In this document: in pieces, positions 8,390 through 10,581 of the stretch
Layout of the letters: each line of letters starts with the position of its first letter
How positions within the stretch are numbered: the first letter of the stretch is position 1
Assembly (NCBI GenBank): GCA_030694985.1
Contig: JAUYTV010000037.1
Location: forward strand, 1-64,000
DNA: 64,000 nt
Source of the DNA: Methanoregula sp.
Lineage (GTDB): Archaea; Halobacteriota; Methanomicrobia; Methanomicrobiales; Methanospirillaceae
Direction: 5' to 3'
Made by a program: the position numbers and the translations under genes
The notes under the pieces: model-generated
Told to the model about the DNA's origin: nothing
Database searches by the model: none
The model's input: the letters and a program-made list of their open reading frames with translations, nothing else

Positions 8390-9607
8390 TCATACCACTG
8401 AAAGAAAAATCCAGTACACCGCTATCTGGAGAATCGTTAGCGGAATTCCCACTTTTGCAAACTCCATAAAAGAGATCGTCTGGCCCTGCTTCTCAGCATT
8501 CTGGATGATTATTACATTACTTGCAGCGCCAAGGATCGTTAAGTTTCCGGCAATGGTGCTCCCTGCTGCAAGTGCCATCAGCTGGGTGGTTGTGCCACCC
8601 CCGGCCGAAAGAATCATAGGCTGAAAGAGTGCGACAAAAGGGACGTTTGAAATAAACTGGCTGATGAGCACGCTGGTTGTTAAGATCATCGGTACTGAAG
8701 AGACCATACTTCCATTGACAAACAACTGGAAAAACCCGGTCTGCCAGACACTCTGCATCAGTACAAACATAGCAGCAAAGAAGACGAGCGTAGCCCAGTC
8801 AATACTACGGAGCACTGTCCATCTCTGCCCGGAGAGGAGAAGGACCGGGATCGCGGCTGCCACCGCAATCAGGGGCAGGGTGATCACCATCCGGGCTCCC
8901 AACAGGGACGCAGCAATATTTGCCACTGCAAGGATGAGAATAATTACCAGCGAACACCGGACCGGAAGAGTCGCTCTCATATCACAGGGACAAACGGGTT
9001 CGTGTATAAGTGGCCGCGTTAAAAACTCCTGTGGATAGATCAGGCGCAGTACAACAAATGCAATCAGGAGACTCAAGAGGGTAGGGATAAGAAGATATGA
9101 CCCGAACGTCACAAAAGATCCTGTCATCCCACTGTCCTGCGCGATTAACAGGTTCTGCGGGTTTCCGATCGGGCTCATCACACTGCCGGTGGTGATCGCA
9201 ACTGCCAGCGTGATAAGGAGCAGGGAAGGAGAGAGCTTAAACCGCGTGGCAAGCGTGAGAACCAACGGAGTCCCGATAATGGCAAGGGTATCATTCATCA
9301 GGAGTGCCGAGAGCAATCCCATTCCAAAAAGGATAACAAGCACCAGTTGATTGGGATTTTTTGCATGAGAAAAAAAGCGGTGGGCGATATATGAAAGGTA
9401 TCCGCTCTCAACAAGGGCCTCTCCTACAACAAACATCCCGAATAAAAAGAGCATCACATCGGGGTTAATCGCATGCAGTGCATCGACCGGTGCGATCTGA
9501 CCTGTGATAAGGACTGCCAGTGCTCCTCCGAGCATGATCTGCCAGATCTTAAAGTTAAACCTGCCCACCTGCCTGACAGCAATCAGGAGAAAGACAGCAA
9601 TTAACAC
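8390..9607 (-). CDS. ion transporter of the ArsB/NhaD (SLC13-like) superfamily
   Basis: A 405-residue polytopic membrane protein with about ten to eleven hydrophobic helices. Family signatures include the NDTLAIIGTPLVL and MSPIGNPQNLLIAQ hairpin-loop regions and a C-terminal repeat with GAASNVIIIQNAEK. These belong to the arsenite/sodium-proton/dicarboxylate permease superfamily. The substrate (anion or Na+/H+) cannot be decided from sequence alone. No arsenic genes are adjacent. The start is a GTG at 9607, because no ATG or TTG is in frame before the upstream stop, and the ribosome binding site is poor. Confidence 0.8.
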   Translation of the reverse strand: MLIAVFLLIAVRQVGRFNFKIWQIMLGGALAVLITGQIAPVDALHAINPDVMLFLFGMFVVGEALVESGYLSYIAHRFFSHAKNPNQLVLVILFGMGLLSALLMNDTLAIIGTPLVLTLATRFKLSPSLLLITLAVAITTGSVMSPIGNPQNLLIAQDSGMTGSFVTFGSYLLIPTLLSLLIAFVVLRLIYPQEFLTRPLIHEPVCPCDMRATLPVRCSLVIILILAVANIAASLLGARMVITLPLIAVAAAIPVLLLSGQRWTVLRSIDWATLVFFAAMFVLMQSVWQTGFFQLFVNGSMVSSVPMILTTSVLISQFISNVPFVALFQPMILSAGGGTTTQLMALAAGSTIAGNLTILGAASNVIIIQNAEKQGQTISFMEFAKVGIPLTILQIAVYWIFLSVV

Positions 9608-9769
9608 AATGACTGCGATATACGTAGATGAATGTCAAGCATAATGGAAGATGAGCATTCGCATTCATCCGGATCAAAGTTTTTATGGTCCTGGGAACCG
9701 ACAGGCTTTTTTTTTTTAAAACAGTTACACGGTCATCGGACAGGAAATGTGCTTTTTTTAGTCCTGCGG

Positions 9770-9863
9770 GGTTCTGTTGAAACCCTCTAAAAAAGAGGGG
9801 GTCACCCTCCAAACCGCTGATAAGATGAAGCGAATCACAGGAAAACAGGATTTCAACAGAGCC
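9770..9863. mobile_element. 94-bp MITE-like element with 8-bp target site duplication
   Basis: Terminal inverted repeats GGTTCTGTTGAAA (9770-9782) and TTTCAACAGAGCC (9851-9863) match over 13 bp with one mismatch. They are flanked by the identical 8-mer TCCTGCGG at 9762-9769 and 9864-9871. This is the footprint of a transposed non-autonomous element. The ends resemble those of IS6/IS240-like transposons, which make 8-bp duplications (family knowledge). It has no coding capacity. Inside is a hairpin CCCTCT/AGAGGG at about 9783-9798. It lies between the permease and the reductase genes. Confidence 0.75.
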
Positions 9864-9900
9864 TCCTGCGGAAAAAAATCACTATATTTTATTTTTCTTT

Positions 9901-10581
9901 TCAGGGTTTTTGAACATTCCAGTGGAGAAGAACACCATTTTCAATCCTGATCATCTCTGAAAGGTGGAGCCGGCAAAACCCGGATTCTAAAATAAATCCT
10001 TTTCCGTCAACAAACGAAGGAGAGTCTTTACCCCCGATGATCATGTTGCCGATAAACGTGTATATCTCATCGACCAGCCCGGCCTCGATGAGACCGGCAA
10101 TCAGGGTTCCGCCGCCTTCTACCATCACACGCCGGATACCCATCTCACCCAGCTTGTCCATCAGGATACCCAGATCCACTTCATTCTCACCGGCAATAAT
10201 CACCGTGGCATATTTTTGCAGTGTGGCAATTTTTTTTGGATCTGCCTGGTGCGAGACTGCAATGATCCGTTTTCCCGCTCCTTTGTGTAAGAGGGCAGCT
10301 TCAGGGGGGGTTCTGGCTTTACTGTCAACAACAATACGTACCGGGTGCTCATCTGCTCCACGGTGCAGCCGGTTGGTACGGCGTTCCTCTGATTTTACCG
10401 TTAGGGAGGGATCGTCTGCAAGCACGGTGCCGATTCCTACCATGACAGCATCCGAGTCCGCTTTGAGCTGGTCAACGCGGGAGAAATCCTGTGCACCGGA
10501 AATCTTTACCTGCCTGCGTTCACGGGTGGATATTTTCCCGTCAGCACTCATGGCAACATTGACTACGACATACGGTCGCAT
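9901..10581 (-). CDS. arfC: 2,5-diamino-6-ribosylamino-pyrimidinone 5'-phosphate reductase
   Basis: A 226-residue protein of the RibD C-terminal / Rib7 reductase family. It uses NADPH to reduce the ribose side chain of the early riboflavin and F420 precursor to the ribitylamino form. Visible motifs are VNVAMSADGKIS at the N-terminus, SDAVMVGIGTVLADDPSLTV, and MVEGGGTLIAGLIEAGLVDE at the NADPH site. There is no deaminase domain, as in archaeal versions. The start ATG at 10581 gives the usual length. The MITE lies just downstream. Flavin and deazaflavin F420 supply are essential for methanogenesis. Confidence 0.92.
   Translation of the reverse strand: MRPYVVVNVAMSADGKISTRERRQVKISGAQDFSRVDQLKADSDAVMVGIGTVLADDPSLTVKSEERRTNRLHRGADEHPVRIVVDSKARTPPEAALLHKGAGKRIIAVSHQADPKKIATLQKYATVIIAGENEVDLGILMDKLGEMGIRRVMVEGGGTLIAGLIEAGLVDEIYTFIGNMIIGGKDSPSFVDGKGFILESGFCRLHLSEMIRIENGVLLHWNVQKP

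Follow-up and report, generated by a model that had tools for sequence, protein, structure and literature searches.

A 94-bp MITE with a perfect 8-bp target duplication in Methanoregula and its IS5-type ends

The 94-bp element at positions 9770-9863 of the window (the whole 64-kb stretch of Methanoregula DNA that was analyzed) is a real MITE that was transposed into its present site; judged by sequence comparison of the tips, the autonomous partners of these tips are IS5-family elements of ∼1 kb, not IS6. We consider it very probable that the element was inserted in trans by an IS5-family transposase and that it belongs to a family of ∼145-bp elements, the 94-bp form having arisen by internal loss of 51 bp. 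This account builds on direct observation of the family copies, their ends, the length of the duplication, an empty site, and full-length IS5-family elements of relatives that have these ends. The assembly holding the window comprises 2.49 Mb in 58 contigs and is 96% complete. The features are as follows:

8390-9607, minus strand: anion-transporter-like gene, resembling the DASS family but under its cut-off.
9555-9812, minus strand: open reading frame of 85 aa, apparently spurious.
9762-9769, no strand: left copy of the target-site duplication, TCCTGCGG, 8 bp (seen in the sequence; L041 has its complement, CCGCAGGA, once at the empty site).
9770-9863, plus strand: MITE, short (apparently internally deleted) form of the 145-bp family (own-genome copies, alignment).
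9770-9782, plus strand: left TIR, GGTTCTGTTGAAA; similarity reaches 9786 (sequence, tip search).
9794-9804, plus strand: single AGAGGGGGTCA, putative junction of a 51-bp deletion (alignment; L133 and L134 carry two copies).
9851-9863, minus strand: right TIR, GGCTCTGTTGAAA; similarity reaches 9847 (sequence, tip search).
9864-9871, no strand: right copy of the target-site duplication, TCCTGCGG, 8 bp (sequence).
9901-10581, minus strand: gene for 2,5-diamino-6-(ribosylamino)pyrimidinone phosphate reductase of the riboflavin pathway (TIGR01508).

The octamers on either side of the element form a perfect duplication. The TIRs, GGTTCTGTTGAAA and the complement of GGCTCTGTTGAAA, agree at 12 of 13 positions (one mismatch), and the longer arms, 9770-9786 and 9847-9863, at 15 of 17. 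The window was scanned for an 8-bp direct repeat lying tight against a 13-bp inverted repeat with no more than two mismatches, 60-400 bp apart; the element at 9762-9871 was the sole such arrangement in all 64 kb, and the same scan of 60 first-order Markov sequences with the window's dinucleotide make-up found none. Sequence and scan thus confirm what a sequence-only reading of this DNA had described: a 94-bp element, 13-bp TIRs with one mismatch, identical flanking octamers. The same reading had judged the element too small to code, and in fact the only listed open reading frame across its 94 bp (9555-9812) starts within the element, leaves via the flank into another frame of the next gene, and looks spurious.

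The MITE is intergenic; it lies between the reductase gene and the downstream, co-oriented transporter-like gene, outside the interspecies-conserved block upstream of the latter. Two relatives, L041 and L040, have the same gene order without the element. The site in L041 (JANYBK010000129.1; flank 87% identical) reads TCCGCAGGATTTACAGGACATTTCC and contains just one CCGCAGGA, while the matching site of the window, on the reverse strand, reads CCGCAGGA - element - CCGCAGGA - CTAAAAAAAGCACATTTCC; in L040 the counterpart region is uninterrupted. An empty site with a single octamer, which had been proposed as a check on transposition, is therefore at hand. One could speculate that the MITE was captured and fixed as a useful terminator or insulator, as it separates two co-oriented genes and folds into a stable hairpin; however, the closest relatives that share this gene order lack it, and we regard such a role as improbable.

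That the element is a transposed MITE is borne out by its relatives in sequence. The same genome has three further family copies: two full ones on contig 11 (146 and 147 bp, with duplications AAAAAAAC and AAAAAAAT) and a third on contig 12, where an IS1634-family element at the end of the contig interrupts it. Own-genome copies are 98.6% and 92.9% identical to the window element over the right 70 bp. Across the genus, copies were present in 15 of 39 Methanoregula genomes, mostly with lengths of ∼145 or 251-264 bp. An exact flanking repeat of 8 bp was seen for 18 of 45 elements versus 0.14 expected, the expectation being computed from mismatched pairs; one exact repeat had length 9 and none had any length other than 8 and 9. 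Target sites are 75% A+T versus 71% in the flanks, hence a within-site preference is not apparent. A search for the tips across related genomes, of the kind that the earlier reading had called for, gave pairs ∼1 kb apart; in viral contigs the 16-bp tip gave, among the matches listed, a mixed set. The claim of a MITE with a target duplication is thus upheld by the other genome copies, by the family-wide 8-bp duplications and by the empty site in a relative: the element is short, has TIRs, a duplication of fixed length with an empty site, and dispersed copies. It is like prokaryotic MITEs in general (reviewed in PMC10969869; archaeal catalogue, PMC3852290) in being short, non-coding, intergenic and multi-copy, with IS-like inverted ends and a duplication; it is unlike them in the low copy number here (four copies, with two more from another family) and in having no partner in the same assembly.

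Pairs of tips ∼1 kb apart, found by the search across related genomes, were read as full-length elements. These elements, all in other genomes, are 988-1009 bp long, and their proteins match NCBIfam NF033579 (IS5_2; 3.7e-41 for L083) as well as Pfam DDE_Tnp_1. Two of them, L091 and L097, have the same 13-bp tips and are flanked by perfect 8-bp duplications; the frame of L097 is open over 317 aa. Three others, L082-L084, have 17 bp in common with the MITE family at each end and keep its left/right asymmetry (ACCCT left, ATCCT right; left end GAAACCCT, right end GAAATCCT); their frames are broken by shifts or stops, and no clear duplication is seen. Fewer bases are matched to the MITE ends in the elements with perfect duplications, L091, L097 and L152. 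The last of these (e.g. L152:266-1271), from genome G038, is a related IS5-type element with tips TGCTCTGTAGAAATC and duplication ATTATTTT. Two contigs of G038 contain ∼11 near-identical IS5-type matches with tips TGCTCTGTAGAAATC, and the genome has many 260-bp MITEs as well; the element may have been recently active.

Full-length IS5 elements that match the MITE in both ends and duplication length were thus observed in relatives only. No IS5_2 transposase was found in the window's assembly, from which, at 96% completeness and 58 contigs, repeats may be missing. An autonomous partner in the same genome is not strictly required, as a partner can be lost; the MITE is an orphan in this assembly, and its transposase has probably been lost or left unassembled here. 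The interior of the MITE has no evident similarity to the IS; therefore the MITE did not arise by plain deletion from any of the IS observed. With IS5-family insertion sequences (NF033579, transpos_IS5_2) it shares the tips, GGCTCTGTTGAAA(Y)CCT, the 8-bp duplication and full-length partners of ∼1 kb; it differs in having no gene and only the ends in common, and its placement is at the level of the family, not the subgroup. The ISH1 subgroup of the IS5 family also makes 8-bp duplications.

The sequence-only reading had compared the tips with those of IS6/IS240-type elements. An IS6/IS240-type transposase as the mover of the MITE would account for the 8-bp duplication and for a tip with an initial GG and a G at position 7, a pattern shared with the short bacterial IS6/IS26 group (PMC6807381); archaeal ‘IS6’ elements, on the other hand, often have no GG start (PMC6807381). 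However, PF13610, the IS6 transposase domain, has no match in this genome and occurs in only 4 of the 39 genus genomes; at none of the five loci does such a tip pair flank the gene, so that no IS6 transposase is linked to the MITE tips, which flank IS5-family genes instead. We consider this alternative very unlikely. The attribution is a fair error, understandable because a GGNNNNG tip along with an 8-bp duplication does resemble IS6. The further suggestion of a full-length parent elsewhere in the genome found no support, neither an IS5_2 nor a PF13610 transposase having been found in the assembly.

The alternative to a transposon, a conserved structured RNA or a hairpin with a regulatory role, can be practically dismissed: the element strand shows strong folding (z -4.8) and conservation of the interior among copies is good, but the strong fold is largely due to the TIRs, the copies are scattered and bear 8-bp duplications, relatives lack the element at the syntenic position, and a search of Rfam gave no match even at E 1; the picture that would speak for such an RNA, tips without other copies and a structured RNA in synteny, is contradicted on each count.

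How the MITE came to be 94 bp long may be seen from the alignment of the window element with long copies, in which one block is missing. L133 and L134 carry the 11-mer AGAGGGGGTCA twice, 51 bp apart; removal of one AGAGGGGGTCA with the intervening stretch gives 145 - 51 = 94 bp. We infer that the ∼145-bp form, the common one among close relatives, gave rise to the 94-bp form when 51 bp between the 11-bp direct repeats were lost, probably by slippage. A second 94-bp copy, L140, was found in a genome of another species (G020), with a duplication matching at 7 of 8 positions. Its closest matches are long copies within G020 itself (up to 92.8% identity, versus 80% to the window copy), just as the window copy is nearest to the long copies of its own genome; this suggests, on one alignment of ∼70 bp, that the two 94-bp copies represent two independent losses. 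More tentatively, and with the odds somewhat against it, the 145-bp family may repeatedly shorten to 94 bp via built-in direct repeats of 8-11 bp, the short form still being able to transpose; the 94-bp copies of both species are flanked by an 8-bp duplication, perfect in the window.

The preferred reading, insertion in trans, would then run as follows. An IS5-family DDE transposase would recognize the 13-17 bp ends of the MITE; a staggered 8-bp cut between the reductase and transporter-like genes would lead to insertion and duplication of TCCTGCGG; loss of 51 bp between the internal 11-bp direct repeats, by slippage or end-joining, would leave 94 bp. Mobilization of the window copy by a transposase of the IS5 group is probable.

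The element is an ordinary, well-supported MITE, and general understanding is unchanged by it. An IS5-type MITE family is hereby documented in Methanoregula; no earlier report of a MITE in this genus or its order was found in the literature searched. The family may help in annotation and may mark past IS5 activity in genomes where the transposase is no longer seen.

Other elements were seen along the way. The IS1634-family element, with a 542-aa DDE transposase and ends CCTAAGCTCCCGA, is multi-copy (L003, L071-L075; G000 C12, C19, C29, C8, C26, C24), and its copies at contig ends apparently break the assembly. It was considered as a parent of the MITE and rejected: it has tips of its own and merely interrupts a single copy of the MITE, that on C12. 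Another MITE family, with elements of 96 bp, has the tips of the 94-bp MITE but an unrelated interior, and its two copies have perfect 8-bp duplications, TAAATAAT and GATTATTG:

L027:1501-1596 (G000:C40:2920-3015): copy of the 96-bp MITE.
L076:689-784 (G000:C40:19688-19783): copy of the 96-bp MITE.

Finally, a 516-bp element, apparently non-coding, at L085:239-754 (G024:C1:197438-197953) also has these MITE tips and is flanked by a perfect 8-bp duplication, AAAAAAGG.
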